DNA of 64,000 nt from Rhizobium sp. Root708 (GTDB lineage Bacteria; Pseudomonadota; Alphaproteobacteria; Rhizobiales; Rhizobiaceae), in the NCBI RefSeq assembly GCF_001429725.1, contig NZ_LMHV01000042.1, forward strand, positions 73-64,072. Direction: 5' to 3'. Shown here one piece after another: positions 2,753 through 38,665 of this stretch. The first letter of the stretch is position 1, and each line of letters begins with the position of its first letter. Position numbers and translations under genes: made by a program. Under the pieces are notes generated by a model. The model worked only from the letters and a program-made list of their open reading frames with translations. It did no database searches and was not told where the DNA came from.

Positions 2753-3610
2753 CTACTCGTGATCGTTGCTGAGGCGATGAGATTCCCAACCTGCCAACAT
2801 TCGGTCGATCGTCTGCAGATCGTATCCCCGCACGATCAGACGTCGTATACGCTCTGCTCGAAGGTTGGCCCGCCATTGGTGAATGGTCATTCCCGCACTC
2901 AGTTCGAAGGATGCAGCTAGATCAAGCGGCGACATGCTGACCTCCGTCGATAGTTCGGAAAGGGACAGGTCGCCGTCGAGATGCTCCGCGATGCGATCCT
3001 TCGTTCGAGCTTCCTGACCACGTGACAGACGTTGTATCGTTGTTGTCCCGATCCTGCATCCAGCATAAGTCTTGATCGCATGAGCCGTGGCAGCAATGCT
3101 GACGTGGTCCACCAGTAGGCGGTTCGAATCCCGCGGAGCCCGGAAACACGGAAGGATCGCCCGCGCCAGATTGTGGAGGATGACATCCTTCACGCCCAGT
3201 CCCGGATAATGATCGAAACTGTCTACGTCTGGCAGGCCTTCTCGTTCTGCGACTTCCAGAAGAGCCTCGCGCGGCAGGTAGAAGCTCAGGTGATGAAACG
3301 TGCTGATGCTGTCGGCGACAGGCGAGGAGCGCAGGTCGTAGATGTTCGCTGTTCCGGCAGGAAGGAAATCAGTCTGTACCCGGCGGCCGTCGATAAACAG
3401 CCCATGGGAGTGTACGTCGCGGAGCTGTATCGTCACCAGGAACGCATCTTCGACGGGGATCGGCTCAGTGAGACCGGTGTCCTCTTTGTCGCAGCGGATT
3501 TCCGTCACCGCCACTTTGGCGTTCTTCAGGGTCCGAGCGACAAACGAGGGTGCCGTGTCGGTCTTGAACGTACGCCGCAGCGTCTCGCCGTAGGCTCCGT
3601 TTTCCTTCAT
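2753..3610 (-). CDS. AraC-family regulator paralogue with degenerate C-terminal HTH
   Basis: 285 residues starting at ATG 3610, which overlaps the stop of the upstream AraC gene as ATGA, so the two are probably translationally coupled. The N-terminal 190 residues carry the sensor domain shared by the other AraC genes here (NGAYGETL, PVEDAFLVTIQLRD, DGRRVQTDFLPAGTANIYDLR, SFYLPREALLE). The first HTH region is recognisable but drifted (LSLSELSTEVSMSPLDLA). Where a GF-x-D-x-S-HF second helix should be, the protein reads YDLQTIDRMLAGWESHRLSND and ends. The recognition part of HTH2 is therefore missing. It may be a decaying duplicate, or a non-DNA-binding partner of the upstream regulator. Confidence 0.75.
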   Translation of the reverse strand: MKENGAYGETLRRTFKTDTAPSFVARTLKNAKVAVTEIRCDKEDTGLTEPIPVEDAFLVTIQLRDVHSHGLFIDGRRVQTDFLPAGTANIYDLRSSPVADSISTFHHLSFYLPREALLEVAEREGLPDVDSFDHYPGLGVKDVILHNLARAILPCFRAPRDSNRLLVDHVSIAATAHAIKTYAGCRIGTTTIQRLSRGQEARTKDRIAEHLDGDLSLSELSTEVSMSPLDLAASFELSAGMTIHQWRANLRAERIRRLIVRGYDLQTIDRMLAGWESHRLSNDHE

Positions 3611-4518
3611 GTCGAGACCTCCCAGAGTGACCGGCGGTATGCGCCCGGCGTCGCGAACACGAGACGGGCAAATGACCGTGTGAAATGGCTCTGATCGGCG
3701 AACCCGCAGGCATGCGCGATCTCGCCCAACGTGAGCGACGTCGACCGCAGCAAGTCTTTCGCACGCTCGCATCGTCGGAGTACCATCCATTGGTGTGGCG
3801 CGACCCCGACGGTCTGCTTGAACGCACTAACGAAGTGCCGTGCGGACATGCCACACTCGCGCGCTATTTGCGCCAGAGGCACCTCTCCGGCAATGTTGGC
3901 GTCGATCAATTCCTTGGCCCGCCGTTCCATTTTCTGCGTTAGCCCAGTCGGCATTCCCTTTTCCAATATGCGAAGATCGCCATAGCCTCCGGCAAGATGC
4001 GTTGCGACCGCCAGCGCCAGGTGATCAAGGAAGAGCTGGCTTGCGTACTCCGGGGTCTGGAAGGCGGGAAGGATAGCGGCGCTGAGGCTCGCCACTACTG
4101 GGTCGTCGGTCGGACGGCCCTCGTGAGCATTCAGCTCGCTGAAGATCGCACCATTCTCCTCGGCAAGCGTGTCGAACGCCGCCTTCGGAAGGTAGTACAT
4201 CACGCAATTCGAGGTCTCGCGAACGAATGCGATCGGGTCGACCCGCAAGTCGTAGATCGAGGTCTGTCCTGCAAACAACGGCAACCGTCCGCTGCCGCGG
4301 CCATTGATCCAGAGCTCGTGCTCCAGGCAATCCTCGACCTGGAACGCGACGAGATACGCGTCTTCCGTTGGAATGGGAGATGTCAGGCTGGGCCGTTGGC
4401 AGCGAATGTGGGTGATGCCTATTTCCGATCGTTTCAAACTGGTCGTGACGATCGAAGGCGCGCTTTCGAGTTGGAAATGATCCCCGAGCTTCTGCCCATA
4501 AACCCCTTGGCTTCGCAT
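3607..4518 (-). CDS. AraC-family transcriptional regulator
   Basis: 303 residues from ATG 4518, with a GGAGG-like site just upstream. The N-terminal half is the shared sensor domain (SQGVYGQKLGDHFQ, PTEDAYLVAFQVED, INGRGSGRLPLFAGQTSIYDLR). The C-terminal 100 residues form a complete double HTH: VPLAQIARECGMSARHFVSAF, then SLTLGEIAHACGFADQSHFT followed by RSFARLVFATPGAYRR. It is first in a two-gene unit with the HTH-defective paralogue at 2753-3610 (ATGA overlap). It should be a DNA-binding activator or repressor of neighbouring metabolic genes; effector and targets are unknown. Confidence 0.88.
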   Translation of the reverse strand: MRSQGVYGQKLGDHFQLESAPSIVTTSLKRSEIGITHIRCQRPSLTSPIPTEDAYLVAFQVEDCLEHELWINGRGSGRLPLFAGQTSIYDLRVDPIAFVRETSNCVMYYLPKAAFDTLAEENGAIFSELNAHEGRPTDDPVVASLSAAILPAFQTPEYASQLFLDHLALAVATHLAGGYGDLRILEKGMPTGLTQKMERRAKELIDANIAGEVPLAQIARECGMSARHFVSAFKQTVGVAPHQWMVLRRCERAKDLLRSTSLTLGEIAHACGFADQSHFTRSFARLVFATPGAYRRSLWEVST

Positions 4519-27233: not shown

Positions 27234-28145
27234 TCATTCACAACGGTTTCTGCGCCAGACACCCGGAGTTGTTCCGACATACTGCATGAAGACTCGAGTG
27301 AAGTGGCTTTGATCGGAGAAGCCGCTGAGGATGCCAACTTCGGCGAGGGATTTGCCCTTGTCAAGCAACAGTTCCTTGGCGTGGTCCAGTCGCCGTAGTT
27401 GGAACCATTCGTGTGGAGACTGGCCTGTAGTCTGTCGAAAGGCCCGGCAGAAGTGCCTCTTCGACAGTCCGCATTCCCTCGCGAGCGCCTCGAGCTCCAG
27501 AGCACCATCGAGCCGCGACTCGATCAGTTCCGTGGCCCGCTTGCGCTGCCATGGCGCGAGACCGCCTTTGGAGACCTTGCCTCCGGGCGATAGCCCTCCG
27601 TAGGTCGATGCGACGTGGGAGGCCATCGCAAGGGAGATGTGATCAACGAAGAGCTGAGGAACCTCGTCCGGGTTGGCGAAGGCGGTCGCCGCAGCCGTCA
27701 TCAGGCTCGCCATCGTCGGGTCGTCGTAGCCAAAGCCCGGCTTGTAGACCAGTTCGCTGATCTTGGGGGCGCAGGCCTCCTCGGCGACCTTGTCGAGCAC
27801 GTCCGACGGCAGGTAGAAGTGCACGGAGTGGAAGGGCTTGTCCAACAGCACAACGGGATCTCGCTGCAGATCGTACACGAGGCTCTGGCCCTGACGAAGA
27901 TCTTGCACCGGATACTGCCTGCCATCCTCCCAGTAGCGATGCGTGGGGTAGTCGCGCAATTGAAGCGCCACGAGGTAGGCCGTCTCTCGCGGAATGGACT
28001 TGCTTGGGAACGGGGACGGCGCGCTGCCCTTGATTTCGGTAAGGGCAAGATTTTCCCGCTTCAGGTTCCGGGACAGCACTGTCGGGACGTTCTGAAGTTC
28101 GAAACGCGAACCGAGGTTTTCACCATATGCACCTGCGTCAGTCAT
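27234..28145 (-). CDS. AraC-family transcriptional regulator
   Basis: 303 residues from ATG 28145, with GGGAG upstream. The N-terminal domain is the one shared in this island (TDAGAYGENLGSRFEL, PRETAYLVALQLRD, LRQGQSLVYDLQRDP, HFYLPSDVLDKVAEE, QLFVDHISLAMASHV). The double HTH is complete: LEALARECGLSKRHFCRAF and KSLAEVGILSGFSDQSHFT, then RVFMQYVGTTPGVWRR. Upstream of it (towards 28.3 kb) is a terminator-like hairpin shared with the NDH-2 gene, so it is probably transcribed on its own. Confidence 0.9.
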   Translation of the reverse strand: MTDAGAYGENLGSRFELQNVPTVLSRNLKRENLALTEIKGSAPSPFPSKSIPRETAYLVALQLRDYPTHRYWEDGRQYPVQDLRQGQSLVYDLQRDPVVLLDKPFHSVHFYLPSDVLDKVAEEACAPKISELVYKPGFGYDDPTMASLMTAAATAFANPDEVPQLFVDHISLAMASHVASTYGGLSPGGKVSKGGLAPWQRKRATELIESRLDGALELEALARECGLSKRHFCRAFRQTTGQSPHEWFQLRRLDHAKELLLDKGKSLAEVGILSGFSDQSHFTRVFMQYVGTTPGVWRRNRCE

Positions 28146-28282
28146 GGAGCGGCTCCCTAACGGATCTGATCTTACGACGCCGATCTGCGCTTGCAACTTC
28201 GTTTCGGACGAGGTCTGGATTTTGCGTCCACATCGTTCAATACCGAGCGAAATTTTTCAAGGAGGCGCTGAGAACAGAGAAA

Positions 28283-29893: not shown

Positions 29894-30844
29894 TCAGTCC
29901 GCCGAAAGCGGTCTGATAGACGATCGCCAGTCGCGGGGCCTGTCGCCAGTGATCCGCAGAAAGGTGCGGGCGAAGTGGGCGTGATCCGCAAACCCGCAGC
30001 GCGCCCCGATATCGGCCAGCGAGAGGGAACGGTCCCGCATGAGGTCGCATGCGTGCCTGATCCTTCGTCGCAGCAGCCACTGCTGCGGTGTCTCGCCCAT
30101 TGTGCGGCTGAACGCGCGGCCGAAATGGGATACAGAGGCGGAGCACTCCCTTGCCACTTCCAAGACTGAAACGTCGCTCTCGATGCGCGAATCCATCAGT
30201 TCCAGCGCCCGTCTCATCTGCAATGGCGCAAGGCCCCGGCTGCCAGCGATGCTTCGTTCCTCCAGCCGCCCGTACCGCACGCAGATGTGGACGGCGGCGG
30301 CGAGCGTGATCTGCTCGACGAAAAGCCGCGGGAAGCTGGCGGGTTCCTCGAAGCATGGTCGCAGTGCCGTCATGAGATTGTTAAGTGTCGCGTCATCGGC
30401 GGAAGATCCTGCTGGGTGCGCAAGCTCCGCAATGCGTGGCGCGCCCATGTCGTCGGTGATGAAGTCCAGCATCGATCGCGGAAGGTGATAGATGTAGCTG
30501 TGGGACGAGCTTCGCGGCCTGACCCGAAGCTCTCGGCGCAGATCGTATATGCTTGACGTTCCGGTCGGCAGAGGTTCCCTGCCGCACGACCTGCCATCGA
30601 CCCAGAGTTCGTGGTCTGGGCAGTCCTCGGCCTGCGTTGATACGAGCCATGCGTCTTCATAGGGAAAGACGTCGCTCATCTCCGGATTGCCCGAGCAGAT
30701 CAACTTCGTGACTGCGATCTCCGAGTTCCCGAGCAGGGAGCTCACAAGCACAGGCGCCTCTGTCACGCCGATCGGCCTTCCCAGATCCTTGCCGAAGGCC
30801 CCATTGATCGTTTTCGCGCCGCCGACTTCGCTCGCAGCGCTCAC
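29894..30844 (-). CDS. AraC-family transcriptional regulator
   Basis: 316 residues. The shared sensor domain is slightly divergent: TINGAFGKDLGRPIG, PYEDAWLVSTQAEDCPDHEL, VDGRSCGREPLPTGTSSIYD, YHLPRSMLDFITDDMGAP. Complete HTH pair: VSVLEVARECSASVSHFGRA and LSLADIGARCGFADHAHFAR, then TFLRITGDRPRDWR. It begins 24 bp downstream of the SnoaL-like gene on the same strand and probably belongs to the cupin-SnoaL unit, which it may control. Confidence 0.9.
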   Translation of the reverse strand: MSAASEVGGAKTINGAFGKDLGRPIGVTEAPVLVSSLLGNSEIAVTKLICSGNPEMSDVFPYEDAWLVSTQAEDCPDHELWVDGRSCGREPLPTGTSSIYDLRRELRVRPRSSSHSYIYHLPRSMLDFITDDMGAPRIAELAHPAGSSADDATLNNLMTALRPCFEEPASFPRLFVEQITLAAAVHICVRYGRLEERSIAGSRGLAPLQMRRALELMDSRIESDVSVLEVARECSASVSHFGRAFSRTMGETPQQWLLRRRIRHACDLMRDRSLSLADIGARCGFADHAHFARTFLRITGDRPRDWRSSIRPLSAD

Positions 30845-32856: not shown

Positions 32857-33394
32857 TGGTTTCTCCATGTGAAATGCCGCCAGAGATCGAGCAGGCGGCC
32901 CGTTAGGCTGACCGGGCATTGATCATAGTCGGTGCAGCTCGCTTGCAGAGGCTGCGCGGTATCGAGAATACTCAAGCTCTCCGACCCGTCCTTTCGGATG
33001 GCCGGAGAGCTTATTCCGAAGACGACGCTTCGGTCTGCGTTGGTACGGCTGGACCCGCGCTGGGTCGGACGCGCTGAGGACCCATATTGCGGCAGCCGCG
33101 GAGAGCACGCAGGGAAGCGAGAGAGGATATCGTCTCCAGAAATGACGGACCATGCGACGGATTGCCTGTGATAGCTGGCATCATTCTGGGAAATGAAATC
33201 CAGATTGTATTTTGAACAAGCGACTTCCTTTGTGTGTTAGGGACACGATCCCGAACGATGCGTCTCCCGATCTCGAGGGGTTAAAGACCCGCGCAACTTG
33301 TCCGCATACTTCCAGCCGTGCCCCATTCCTTCAATAACGCGGTACTCGTTTGCGACACGCTGAAGTCGAACATGCGGGCGATGGAGCATACGCG
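32857..33394. other. intergenic stretch with a possible alpha/beta-hydrolase tail
   Basis: 538 bp with no intact gene. On the minus strand around 33255-33370 a short frame reads LQRVANEYRVIEGMGHGWKY, which resembles the catalytic-His end (EGMGHGW) of an alpha/beta hydrolase, without the rest of such a protein. A minus-strand frame at 32923-33153 has a hydrophobic start but no ribosome-binding site. The region also holds the MFS promoter. Confidence 0.3.
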
Positions 33395-34615
33395 ATGGGT
33401 GGGAGCGAATTTCGACGTGGATGGCCACCGCTGACGGCAGCGTTGCTCGGCAATGCAATCGGTGTTCACTCCCTGCCGCCATACACCATCGGCCTCTTCA
33501 TGGGGCCGCTTCAGGCGGAATTCGGCTGGGAGAGAACGTCCATATCAGCGGGAATAACTGTCCTCACAATATGCAGCGCCATCAGCGCTCCGTTCGTAGG
33601 CTCAGCCCTGACACGGTTTGGGGCTAGTCCACTCATCGTCGGCGGTCTCGGCTTTGGGGCGCTGGGGTACTTCGCGCTGAGTTCGATGGGGCCGTCGATC
33701 GCAATATTCTTGGCGATCATGGGGGCGATGGCGCTCCTTGGTTCCGGATGCGGACCGGTCACTCTTTCCCATCTGCTTGTGACATCGTTCGAGAGAAGGC
33801 GCGGCACCGCACTCGGAGTTGCGATGATGGGTATTGGCCTTTCAGGTACTATCGCTCCATTTCTTCTCGGGCATGTCGTCAACGGGAGCGGCTGGCGAAT
33901 GGGCTATGTCACGCTCGCCGTCATGATGATTGGGGCGATACCTGTCATGCTCTGCTTCCTCGTCATCACGAAGACGCGGTTTCCCGAGGCAGCGACGCGG
34001 CGCCATCTGCCTCGGGAAAGTATCCCTTGGAACGATTCGACCTTCCGTCGGATGCTCGCCGCATTCTTCTGTGTTGCGCTAGCGAGCGGAGGCGTTGTGG
34101 TTCACTTTGTCCCGATGCTTGTCGACAACGGGTACGCCGTCGCCCACGCTTCGGCTGCATCGAGCTTCCTTGGGATTTCGTTGGTCCTCGGACGGCTGCT
34201 GACTGGCCTCATTATCGATCGGGTGTTCGCGCCTACGGTCGCCGCTGTCATCATGCTCGGCAGTTCGCTCGGGTTTGTCGTGCTGTTCAGTCTGGGCGGC
34301 GACTGGATTCCGTTGACTGCCGTGCTCGTCGGTCTGACACTAGGCGCCGAGCTCGACCTCATCGCCTACCTGGTGTCGCGCTACTTCGGGCCGGCAGCGT
34401 ACGGCAGGATCGTGGGGGTCCTCTATTCCGGCTTCCTGGTCGGAGTCGCTCTTTCTCCGCTGTTCTTCGCGATCCTGAGAGATACGGGCGGCAGCTACTC
34501 TCCATGCCTGCTCTGGGCCGCCTTCTTCCTCGGGATCGGCGCCAATCTGTTCAAAGGACTTCCGCCCTTTGAAGAGCCGATTCAATCGGAGGTTCGGAAG
34601 CTGAGGCCTGCGTGA
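33395..34615 (+). CDS. MFS transporter (monocarboxylate/oxalate-formate antiporter-like)
   Basis: 406 residues from ATG 33395, with GGAG 8 bases upstream. Twelve helices expected. Features: GLFMGPLQAEFGWERTSISA after helix 1, SERRRGTALGVAMMGIGLSG-like loop (FERRRGTALGVAMMGIGLSG) after helix 4, a polar centre near 215-230, and LLTGLIIDRVF in the second half. The GWERTSIS signature is typical of MFS members carrying organic acids. Substrate unknown. The AraC pair begins 92 bp downstream on the same strand. Confidence 0.85.
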   Translation: MGGSEFRRGWPPLTAALLGNAIGVHSLPPYTIGLFMGPLQAEFGWERTSISAGITVLTICSAISAPFVGSALTRFGASPLIVGGLGFGALGYFALSSMGPSIAIFLAIMGAMALLGSGCGPVTLSHLLVTSFERRRGTALGVAMMGIGLSGTIAPFLLGHVVNGSGWRMGYVTLAVMMIGAIPVMLCFLVITKTRFPEAATRRHLPRESIPWNDSTFRRMLAAFFCVALASGGVVVHFVPMLVDNGYAVAHASAASSFLGISLVLGRLLTGLIIDRVFAPTVAAVIMLGSSLGFVVLFSLGGDWIPLTAVLVGLTLGAELDLIAYLVSRYFGPAAYGRIVGVLYSGFLVGVALSPLFFAILRDTGGSYSPCLLWAAFFLGIGANLFKGLPPFEEPIQSEVRKLRPA

Positions 34616-34707
34616 TTCATGTCCCGAACCATCAATCCTCGCTCGGAGTGCCTTGCTATTTTTTGGTTGTCCGAACCAACGCCCAACTCGAGAGGTAGAA
34701 GAACGGA

Positions 34708-35622
34708 ATGAACGCTCGTGGCGCCTATGGGGCCAACCTTGCAAGCGCGCTCAACGCACAGGCTGCTCGGTCTTTCCTGACGAGAACAAGTCTGAAAAGA
34801 AGTAGCATCGCCGTCACGCAAATCAGATGCGATATCGCGGACAACGTTCTTACGGCACCTGTCGAGAACGAGGACGCCATCCTAGTCATGCTGCAGCTAA
34901 GGGACTGGCCGAAGAGAATCCTTTGGAGAGACGGACGCCCTGTTGAGGCTCGGCCATTGGCGGCAGGAGCCGTTTCCATCTTCGACCTCAGAACCCGCTG
35001 GGTTGGGCATCGGGTCTGCCCAATCCACCAGTTAAATTTCTATCTCCCTCGCCACTCCCTGGACGAGATTGCGGACACAGAGGGTCTCGCCCATGTCCAG
35101 CACTTCAACAATGATCCCCTCGTCGGTGCGAGCGATCATGTCATCTGGAACCTCGGAAAGTCGCTGCTTCAGGCCTTCGACCGTCCCAACGAGGCCAACC
35201 AGCTATTCGTGGATCATGTTACCGCGGCTACCGCGGCATATGTCCTGCGGAAATATGGGATCGTTTCTTCAGTGCCTCGCCTGATTGGAGCGAAGCTATC
35301 GCTCGGTCAGCAAAAAAAGGTGAAGGAAATGATCGCTGCCAACCTCGACGGCGCGATATCTACTGCATCGCTGGCAGCCGAGTGCTCGCTCACCATTTCC
35401 GAATTCAATATTGCCTTCGAACGCTCGGTCGGCGTTCGCCCGGACATCTGGCTGGCGGAGCGCAGAATAGAGCGAGCGATGTTTCTGCTGCGGTCGACCG
35501 GATCTTCGTTGACGGAGATTGCTGCGGAGAGCGGCTTTTACGACGGCAGGCATCTATCTCGGGTATTCTGGAAGATTGTCGGTGTCAGCCCCGAAGAGTG
35601 GCGGCACCTGCTACGGCATTGA
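34708..35622 (+). CDS. AraC-family transcriptional regulator
   Basis: 304 residues. Shared sensor domain: NARGAYGANLASALNA, VENEDAILVMLQLRDWPKRI, LAAGAVSIFDLRTRWVG, LNFYLPRHSLDEIADTEG, NQLFVDHVTAATAAYVL. Complete HTH pair: STASLAAECSLTISEFNIAF and SSLTEIAAESGFYDGRHLSR, then VFWKIVGVSPEEWR. Its stop is followed at once by GGAGG and the start of a related HTH-less gene 12 bp on, so the two are co-translated. It probably regulates the adjacent MFS gene or itself (inference). Confidence 0.9.
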   Translation: MNARGAYGANLASALNAQAARSFLTRTSLKRSSIAVTQIRCDIADNVLTAPVENEDAILVMLQLRDWPKRILWRDGRPVEARPLAAGAVSIFDLRTRWVGHRVCPIHQLNFYLPRHSLDEIADTEGLAHVQHFNNDPLVGASDHVIWNLGKSLLQAFDRPNEANQLFVDHVTAATAAYVLRKYGIVSSVPRLIGAKLSLGQQKKVKEMIAANLDGAISTASLAAECSLTISEFNIAFERSVGVRPDIWLAERRIERAMFLLRSTGSSLTEIAAESGFYDGRHLSRVFWKIVGVSPEEWRHLLRH

Positions 35623-35633
35623 AGGAGGATGTG

Positions 35634-36209
35634 ATGAGGACCAGCTTGATCGCGTCCGGGCTGGCATGCCGATTCAAAGCAGCGAATGGACCATTCGTTA
35701 CGGCGCAGACTTTGAGACGCGGCCGATTGACGTTCACGGAGCTGAAGACGGACCGTTGCGAGCCATATGAAACTGGCCCTCGTGTCGTCGAAGACGCCAT
35801 TGTAATCGTTATGCAATTGAGGGCATATCGAGGATTCCAATTCTGGGAGCAGGGGCGGAAAGCCCCGACTTGCGATTTTCAGCCGGGCGATCTGACAATC
35901 AACGACATGAGGTTTGAAGGTCGCGCCATTATAGATCAGCCGCTCCACGCCCTGTATTGCCACATCCCCTTCAATGCGATCATCGACGTGGTCGGCGCGG
36001 AGTTTTGGGGGAGAACGTCGGCGCTTTCCTACAGTCCGGGTCAGGGTTTCGAGGATGCCACTATACGCAATCTGCTTCTGTCGGTGAGCCAGGCGATCCA
36101 CAGCTGCAGCAGAGATCGCCACCTGTATCTCGATCACGTTGCCGTGGCGCTGGTCGCACATCTTGTGGCGGTTCGTGGGGACGCGCTTTCTCGACGGTTT
36201 GCAGCATGA
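35634..36209 (+). CDS. AraC-type sensor domain without DNA-binding domain (truncated paralogue)
   Basis: 191 residues from ATG 35634, with GGAGG 5 bases before. It holds the whole shared N-terminal domain: RVVEDAIVIVMQLRAYRGFQ, FWEQGRKAPTCDFQPGDLTI, GFEDATIRNLLLSVSQAI, LYLDHVAVALVAHLVAV. It then stops at RRFAA just where the linker and double HTH should begin. No HTH is found in the next 250 bp in any plus-strand frame. Either a recombination truncation or a standing sensor-only partner of the AraC protein encoded 12 bp upstream. The same pairing is seen at 2753-4518. Confidence 0.75.
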   Translation: MRTSLIASGLACRFKAANGPFVTAQTLRRGRLTFTELKTDRCEPYETGPRVVEDAIVIVMQLRAYRGFQFWEQGRKAPTCDFQPGDLTINDMRFEGRAIIDQPLHALYCHIPFNAIIDVVGAEFWGRTSALSYSPGQGFEDATIRNLLLSVSQAIHSCSRDRHLYLDHVAVALVAHLVAVRGDALSRRFAA

Positions 36210-36260
36210 TGGCTGAGCGAGGCTGTCTTCAAGCGGGAACCATGGGTACGGCGGATGCTG

Positions 36261-36422
36261 GAGCCTGCTGAACGTCAGACTGGCGCCATTCTTCTTGACG
36301 AGTTCGGCGGGGCCATAGCTGCCAGCCCGGCCACAGGTGCGGCACTCGACTTCGATTACTGGATCGCGCACCCGACGGAGATCGAGGAAAGATTGAGCGG
36401 CTTCTTCTTCGTCATCGGCCAT
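36261..36422 (-). pseudogene. truncated zinc-ribbon-like small protein
   Basis: Frame from ATG 36422, overlapping the upstream gene's stop by 11 bp. It reads ADDEEEAAQSFLDLRRVRDP, then VEVE-type CRTCGRAGSYGPAELVKKNG, as in small rhizobial proteins with a CxxCGRxGxY knuckle. After about 54 residues the similarity ends and the frame runs on antisense to the truncated AraC gene. The second Cys pair expected of a zinc ribbon is absent, so the 3' part has probably been lost at a junction near 36.2 kb. Confidence 0.5.
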
Positions 36423-37161
36423 TGCCCTCGCGTTGCGCCAGCATCCCCTTCAGTTTCTCCATTGCTTTGGCGGCTTCATTGTTCAGTGCGATGAACTTCC
36501 GATCGGGAGTGAAATAGTTCGATCCCTTGGTTAGGCTGTCGCGGTGCTCTTCGAGTTCACCAGTCGCGCGAATGACGGTGTCGATCTGATCGTTCAATCT
36601 ATCGCTCGGGACCTTGCGTTCCATCCACTCCGAGAGTGACAGTCCCAGCTTGGAGGCTCGTTTTTCCTCGTGGGCCTTCTGGCTCTCTGCGAGACCCGAA
36701 ATCATAGAAGCGGCAATTGCCGCAAGGTCGAGATCCGGCAGTGCTCGCCGTCTCCGATTAGGAGGACGCGCGGCGAAATCGAAATCGGCTGGATACGTGT
36801 CGTCGGGAACGAACAATATCGAGGTCTCGCCGTCCGGCTTAGGGGTCACGTCGATAAGGGTGCCGTCGGGCGCCTTCCAGACGACGTGAAACTCGGCAGT
36901 CCAGAGCGCATCTGGCAGTTCCCATATGGACCATCCGTGGAGAGGGCCGCCGCCGTCCTGCTGAACCTTCGCCGCCACGGTGAGATTGCAAAACCCGTGC
37001 ACTCCACTGGGATCCTCAACAACCGGAACGAATATGGGATCGCCGTAAAGCTCGTCGCGGCAGAAAGCGAGGAGGATCAGTAATCGCCACCGGGGTGGTC
37101 TCGGCAAGAGCGGATCCGCGTTGCCGGGCCAGGCCCTCTGCCACCACTCTGGCCTCATCAA
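36412..37161 (-). CDS. conserved-type hypothetical protein
   Basis: 249 residues. The central region is a recognisable uncharacterised pattern found with mobile or accessory DNA: GWSIWELPDALWTAEFHVVW, then PDGTLIDVTPKPDGETSILF and VPDDTYP. The C-terminal third is charged and helical (LAESQKAHEEKRASKLGLSL). No signal peptide. Several His, Glu and Asp in the GWxIWE-x-EFHxVW segment could bind metal, but I know of no tested function. The stop overlaps the zinc-ribbon fragment (ATGGCCGATGA), indicating a former operon. Confidence 0.6.
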   Translation of the reverse strand: MMRPEWWQRAWPGNADPLLPRPPRWRLLILLAFCRDELYGDPIFVPVVEDPSGVHGFCNLTVAAKVQQDGGGPLHGWSIWELPDALWTAEFHVVWKAPDGTLIDVTPKPDGETSILFVPDDTYPADFDFAARPPNRRRRALPDLDLAAIAASMISGLAESQKAHEEKRASKLGLSLSEWMERKVPSDRLNDQIDTVIRATGELEEHRDSLTKGSNYFTPDRKFIALNNEAAKAMEKLKGMLAQREGNGR

Positions 37162-37210
37162 TCCCTACTACGCCAGCCAAGCACTCCCCCATGAAACTTC
37201 GGAAGGACAC

Positions 37211-38507
37211 AATGTCTAGGTGAGACGTCTGTGATCAGTCAACGGGTTCGGCTATTCACCTCACCGCTGTGTACGAGATACCCTACCAAGAAGCGTTCGA
37301 ACGGTTCTTGGGTCAAGCGAAGAACCCACTTCCAAGCTCACGCCCTGAGGTCTGATCGGCCGGCGCCAGCAGAGTCCTCGGGATCGTCTCATCCAATTTT
37401 CTCGATATTCTGTGTGATATCGTCGAAATGACGGCGGCTGTTGGTGCGCGCGACCACGGGCTCGGGTTCGCTCTGTGGTCTCCCTAACCCGTGCCTCGCC
37501 GGTGTCCTGTTAACTTTTTCCCGGGATAACAATGACATCCGGTGACTTTCTGCAAGCCGGATGCCCGACTTCTCACGGTTGGTCGGGCGCGACTGGGCAT
37601 ATGTGGTTGCCGCCTTGCTGCGGCGACCGAGGAGTGCGTCCCTATTATGCCAAGATCGCCGTGGCGGGCATAGTGTGTGTGCCCGCCACCTCTCTCCCGG
37701 AGGAGAGGCTGAGGACGAACCTTGACGACGGACAGCTCGATCAGATTTGGATACGTGCGTCATCGAGCGGCGAGCGCTCTCAATTTCGCTACGGTGGTCG
37801 GAAGCGTGCGATTTTCGGAGCGTCCGCGGGACCGTGTTGCAGCGATTTCGAATCCTTGAGGACTAGCTAAGGCTCTTCGGGCACGCCGCCTCTGGCGGGA
37901 CGCGTGCAGGCGATTTAAGGATTAATATTCGGGCAGCGTTCGAAGCATTCATCATCGAATCCAGCGGCGGGGCTCATCGCGTAGCCGCGATCTAAGTAGA
38001 TCTGACCGTTATGCTTTGCATGGTTCGCGGATACGTTCGCTGTTCTACGGACGAAGCGGCATCGTACTTAAGCGTTTCTTCCGATTTCGAGGATGATCGA
38101 GTGCGTTTTCGGATTCGTACTTTTGCACGGAGGCACTTCGGCACCATTTTTGGCTTCCTTCGGCAAAAAGTGAATCCTGACCCGTCTTCGCGCGACAGCG
38201 AAAGATGGTTAACGTTTGGTTAACGCTTGTACGGCGCGGGTTCGTGGCCTCTGGGATGGCGAGCGAGGGCCGTTGTCAACAATTGTTCAATGGGAAGCTT
38301 ACCCGGTCAACGAGGCATTCTCGGGGGCATAACAACATCATGGCACGCCAAAGGTTGTATTCGCATTATGGCTTGGTATGGTCGGAACCGAGCGCCACGC
38401 GGAGCGAAATCACAAGACTGGGTTGACGACGCCGCAGAGGTGAAAACGGCGCCGTAGTTCAAAAAATTGTTGCACTTCAATTAGTTGGTCAAATTGCAGT
38501 GCCGTCC
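37211..38507. other. gene-poor stretch next to tRNA-Arg
   Basis: About 1.3 kb without a supported gene. Frames are short and unlike any family; composition is locally AT-richer (for example around 37.9 and 38.2-38.5 kb). No integrase, no clear IS end and no RNA fold recognised. It lies on the 3' side of the tRNA, where an integrated element would end. Confidence 0.5.
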
Positions 38508-38568
38508 GAGTCCACGCTTATGGGTTCCACAGTCCGGACTTAGCGGGGTCGAGTCCGGGCTTATGTGG
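38508..38568 (+). repeat. three imperfect direct repeats, period 21-22 bp
   Basis: Units GAGTCCACGCTTATGGG (38508-38524), CAGTCCGGACTTAGCGGGG (38530-38548) and GAGTCCGGGCTTATGTGG (38551-38568) share AGTCC-x3-CTTA-x-GG. They end 21 bp from the tRNA 3' end. The spacing of two helical turns suits repeated protein binding, such as integrase arm sites, but no integrase gene is seen. Confidence 0.45.
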
Positions 38569-38588
38569 CGAGGCAGAATAAACGCAAT

Positions 38589-38665
38589 TGGCGCACCCGA
38601 CAGGATTCGAACCTGTGACCTTTGGAATCGGAATCCAACACTCTATCCAGCTGAGCTACGGGTGC
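38589..38665 (-). tRNA. tRNA-Arg (anticodon CCG)
   Basis: 77 nt with a complete cloverleaf on the minus strand: acceptor GCACCCG pairs with CGGGTGC, D-arm TAGCTCAGCTGGATAGAG, anticodon stem TTGGA/TCCAA with loop TTCCGAT giving anticodon CCG, T-arm CACAGGTTCGAATCCTGT, discriminator G and an encoded CCA. It reads CGG codons. Its 3' end faces the accessory region, making it a plausible integration site. Confidence 0.97.

Follow-up and report, generated by a model that had tools for sequence, protein, structure and literature searches.

Behind a complete AraC-family regulator of Rhizobium sp. Root708 lies a gene of 191 residues (35634-36209, plus strand), identified by its open frame and sensor homology, that consists of a sensor domain without HTH. 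We consider it probable that this gene is a 3'-truncated AraC-family paralogue, the remnant of a truncation at or near a DNA junction downstream of its stop codon. All positions are those of the window, i.e. the whole stretch of 64,000 nucleotides that was analysed (from contig NZ_LMHV01000042.1, forward strand). As a truncation remnant the short gene would be ordinary. Of more interest is the wider pattern of AraC gene pairs: AraC duplicates placed close behind a complete copy are prone to losing parts of their HTH, and the sensor is under strong constraint in the one clade in which this could be measured.

The short gene and its neighbours

The short gene follows the complete AraC regulator claimed upstream of it (gene A, 34708-35622, plus strand; HTH_18 at 63.8 bits) at a distance of 11 bp, where the earlier note had counted 12, the adjacency itself being correct. 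It possesses, as had been claimed, its own GGAGG ribosome-binding site (35624-35628, plus strand, read from the sequence), five bases 5' of the ATG. Upstream of gene A, a domain search places an MFS transporter (33350-34615, plus strand), and homology and HTH identify two further complete AraC paralogues, D (27234-28196) and E (29894-30844), both on the minus strand. The sensor domain proposed for the short gene is homologous to the sensor halves of the neighbouring AraC genes; in total the gene matches, in their sensor halves, six other AraC-type genes of its own genome, of which five lie in the window and the sixth on a different contig. The absence of an HTH is likewise borne out: Pfam and NCBIfam searches of the short protein returned no family at E<=1, while all neighbouring AraC genes show AraC HTH domains, and our HTH profile found none either. 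This profile has 105 positions and was built from the window proteins A, C, D and E, which inflates the scores of these proteins themselves and not those of other genomes.

The frame is intact, its composition is coding-like, and its GC content by codon position resembles that of the neighbouring genes. The structure model of the short protein, for which eight sequences were used (mean pLDDT 83.9, the last seven residues being of low confidence), predicts an AraC/BgaR-like sensor fold with C-terminal helices. Among the sensor structures of AraC/XylS regulators (AraC, BgaR, CuxR and RhaR) the model matches BgaR and AraC best, with E 1e-6 to 5e-5, TM 0.44-0.54 (query length) and 11-14% identity; a sequence search of the protein against the solved AraC sensors gave no match. 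Sequence, tree and modelled fold thus agree on an N-terminal sensor/dimerisation domain homologous to that of the AraC/XylS family, but the C-terminal double HTH that these regulators possess is lacking altogether.

Relatives and evolutionary rate

For the short gene, no near relative emerged from 148 genomes of the genus, 397 of the order, 394 of the family, 210 of the class and 242 of the genus around Bradyrhizobium AS23.2, sets which overlap and were searched at differing E limits. At E<=1e-30 a single other genome of the genus (G072) and none of the 396 other genomes of the order sample matched; five others matched in the family sample at E<=1e-15. At E<=1e-20 there was no match among the 209 other genomes of the class sample, and 99 of the 242 Bradyrhizobium-side genomes matched, the shortest open frame among the matches listed there measuring 302 aa. 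A peptide-pattern search of GTDB contigs gave no match, a plasmid search with the short gene gave one (31%), and plasmid DNA searches with 33300-36260 and 36100-38600 gave none.

The nearest homologue, gene L008 of G072, is 303 aa long, shares 43% identity and carries a full HTH (117 bits over profile positions 1-103) in frame with its sensor. The two genes are sisters in the sensor tree (support 0.97), with equal sensor length and register. They differ in the full HTH of L008, in sequence (42-43% identity) and in that L008 has its own neighbouring AraC gene 320 bp further. The short gene groups with L008 and L023 and not with the clade B discussed below; gene A lies closer to B-like genes than to gene C. 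An HTH match is present in all of 74 homologous frames except two entries, which are the short gene itself; these frames stem from the first locus set only and are redundant, 51 being distinct besides the short gene. One of the 74, gene B of the window, scores only 27 bits.

A partial likeness is seen in Bradyrhizobium AS23.2 (L009), in which a relative of gene A (48%) has a second AraC-type gene behind it in the same orientation and the pair also neighbours an MFS gene (recognised from its translation). However, the MFS gene is divergent there, and the second gene is complete (304 aa, HTH 130 bits) and not an orthologue of the short gene.

In the sensor tree the short gene has the longer branch (0.97, against 0.43 for L008), as would be expected under relaxed constraint, and relative-rate counts over the sensor columns point in this direction with most of 32 outgroups. 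The chi-square exceeds 3.84 with only four of the 32, and these four are non-independent. Of 39 conserved columns, counted in the sensor only, the short gene keeps 25 and L008 keeps 27. Branch length and rate counts together are weak evidence that constraint on the short gene may have been relaxed.

The junction downstream

The earlier note had placed a recombination junction just downstream of the short gene, and such a DNA junction is present, its right side lying at 36257-36260. When 36100-37400 was searched as DNA against the 148 genomes of the genus, six others gave matches, each in a single stretch; these matches start at 36257-36281 and end at 36406-36417. They identify the right side of the junction as the 5' portion of a small, unrelated gene on the minus strand (36257-36422), which is cut mid-frame. 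In four of the six relatives (L012, L013, L014 and L016) this gene runs 28-37 residues past the window's break, and we conclude that the window copy has been cut at 36257-36260. The L011 copy is frameshifted at the window's break, and in L015 a motif search found no frame. The start of the cut gene is overlapped by a gene of 249 aa (36412-37161, minus strand), for which no family and, among the other 147 genus genomes, no homologue was found. The left side of the junction lies somewhere within about 36207-36257, and the stop codon of the short gene is 48 bp before the junction.

We favour truncation because the nearest homologue is full-length, all other homologous frames of the first locus set carry an HTH and the minus-strand gene is cut at 36257. 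The warning that an accidental truncation must be weighed for this gene was therefore justified; moreover, no HTH-free relative was found in its clade. The ancestor of the short gene would have been a full-length regulator with sensor and HTH. A rearrangement, whose right-hand edge is at 36257, would then have fused the AraC cluster to unrelated DNA, at the cost of the DNA-binding half. The remaining frame has a ribosome site of its own; translated together with gene A, it would provide a sensor/dimerisation domain that does not bind DNA. This product would probably be a passive remnant or, at the most, compete weakly with the full-length paralogues. That the rearrangement itself removed the HTH, and in which order the events took place, we infer from this arrangement; given that the stop codon precedes the junction and that the DNA between them shows no HTH homology above chance, HTH loss by this very join is unproved.

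Close AraC pairs and a putative sensor partner

Alternatively, the short protein might be a working sensor partner of gene A or of another full-length paralogue, which by dimerisation would lower or retune the activity of its partner without binding DNA, the HTH having been lost under tolerance or selection. We regard this as unlikely, although the close coupling to gene A with a separate ribosome site, the intact sensor frame and the AraC/BgaR-like fold of the model would all suit such a role.

The same architecture had been reported for a first copy at 2753-4518, and its repetition had been taken as exceeding chance. Neither statement survives. Copy 1 comprises, according to HTH searches, a complete regulator C (3607-4518, minus strand) and a second gene B (2753-3610, minus strand; 285 aa), which overlaps C by 4 bp, has a sensor and HTH1, and has lost HTH2, inside which it ends. 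The HTH_18 match of B reaches 24.5 bits over profile positions 1-50 of 80, below the Pfam cut-off of 33.6, and B covers positions 2-63 of our 105-position profile. Copy 1 retains HTH1 and stems from a different paralogue clade, so that the two copies cannot be treated as one architecture; the short gene neither belongs to clade B nor combines a retained HTH1 with an eroded HTH2. The argument from chance does not hold, as tandem AraC paralogues are common in this family: Bradyrhizobium sp. AS23.2 (G911:C19, L067 2456-6338) has four consecutive ones, all of them complete.

A looser form of the claimed recurrence does stand. We counted same-strand AraC neighbours less than 400 bp apart, which gave 17 rows, one of which was dropped because its two members are parts of a single frameshifted gene; the loci had been selected for their resemblance to gene A and do not form a random sample. 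The search with gene A had matched 10 of the 148 genus genomes at E<=1e-40, and nine stretches were examined. In all seven genus pairs with a gap of -4 to +13 bp the HTH of the second gene is eroded or absent (27, 26, 42, 60 and 48 bits, and none in two), against complete first genes. The second genes of five looser genus pairs (155-368 bp) score 93-153 bits, and those of four Bradyrhizobium pairs (0-118 bp) 117-142 bits. Among the first genes, L103 and L106 also have a weak HTH (67 and 66 bits). Repeated loss in close pairs suits a tolerated or selected loss and argues against plain accident. Five of the seven cases belong to one clade, and the gene of L098 (G142) and the short gene to others, which makes about three origins. 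The L098 gene (6533-7303), second in its pair and of a different clade, ends right after HTH1.

The five cases of one clade are the C+B pairs. Outside the window this pair is present at another four loci, spread over three genomes (G043 with L099 and L104, G048 with L100, G098 with L101). The C-type genes and the B-type genes form separate clades (support 0.995 and 0.999, respectively). The HTH scores 142-171 bits in the first genes and 27, 26, 60, 48 bits and none in the B genes; in each of these tight pairs (window 2753-4518, L099, L100, L101 and L104) the HTH2 of the second gene has been eroded, cut short or shifted out of frame. In two sensor-only frames, L104 and L101:13414-13878, an HTH adjoins in another frame; that of L104 is intact, and the case looks like a frameshift that is recent or a sequence error.

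Sensor dN among the B genes is 0.06-0.31 (10 pairs) and HTH-part dN 0.20-0.50 (six pairs, L104 left out), compared with 0.03-0.24 and 0.14-0.27 among the C genes (10 pairs); dS is saturated or not computable in these comparisons, so that omega values are rough. The ratio of HTH to sensor dN is about 1.5-3.3 in the six B pairs and about 0.9-1.6 in the same six C pairs, with one at 5. The low sensor dN indicates that the sensor of B is maintained by selection, which speaks for a partner role, and the HTH of B, on these substitution counts, is evolving somewhat faster than the sensor, yet not free of constraint.

Several points speak against this role for the short gene. No HTH-free member of its own clade occurs in a second genome, and the junction is close downstream; five of the seven close-pair cases amount to one clade, and these as well as the G142 case, with the exception of the frameshifted L104, keep HTH1. 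That the close AraC pairs of the genus are two-protein regulators, the first protein binding DNA and the second acting as its sensor partner, is a tentative idea that we rather doubt. The second protein would be losing (copy 1 type) or would lack (copy 2) its DNA-binding half, and ligand sensing would be separated from DNA binding through heterodimer formation. If second proteins do act as partners, AraC regulation would gain a natural sensor-only subunit. Our literature search, in which subscription journals were mostly missing, yielded no earlier case of a tandem AraC paralogue that naturally consists of a sensor without HTH. Proteins of the ANR (Aar) type are small, lack an HTH and reduce the activity of AraC-type activators; they are described as helical and 39-80 aa in size (PMC4038620). 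With 191 aa the short protein lies outside the size range given there, and ANR proteins might at most be its functional analogues.

The stretch before the junction and minor observations

It is also conceivable, at very low probability, that a nonsense mutation came first and the junction later, in which case the stop codon would have arisen at the conserved GG and the DNA up to 36257 would be the old start of the HTH. When the plus-strand stretch between stop codon and junction (36210-36256) is read past the stop in the register of L008, the stop indeed takes the place of the first Gly in the conserved GGL that precedes the HTH, and both L and KR are found again where the family has them. However, of 1752 segments that follow stop codons in the window, 59 score as well as this stretch over nine residues and 347 over 16; the same holds for 658 and 4031 of 20000 shuffles, respectively. 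An HTH remnant right after the stop is therefore not supported, its scores being no higher than chance. An assembly error fusing two unrelated stretches, which the abrupt junction and the rarity of both flanks in the genus might suggest, can practically be dismissed, since the window is part of a single 373-kb contig and the genome reaches 99.98% completeness with little contamination.

To the right of the genes discussed above lies a tRNA-Arg (CCG) gene (38589-38665, minus strand). No second copy of its 3' end was found in the window (up to three mismatches) or in the genome (up to two mismatches), so that an island attachment pair at this tRNA finds no support. The tRNA-Arg region is matched by 147 of the 148 genus genomes, and most genus alignments, about nine-tenths of those listed as read by eye rather than counted by machine, end near its 3' end, which indicates that the DNA to the left of it is variable.
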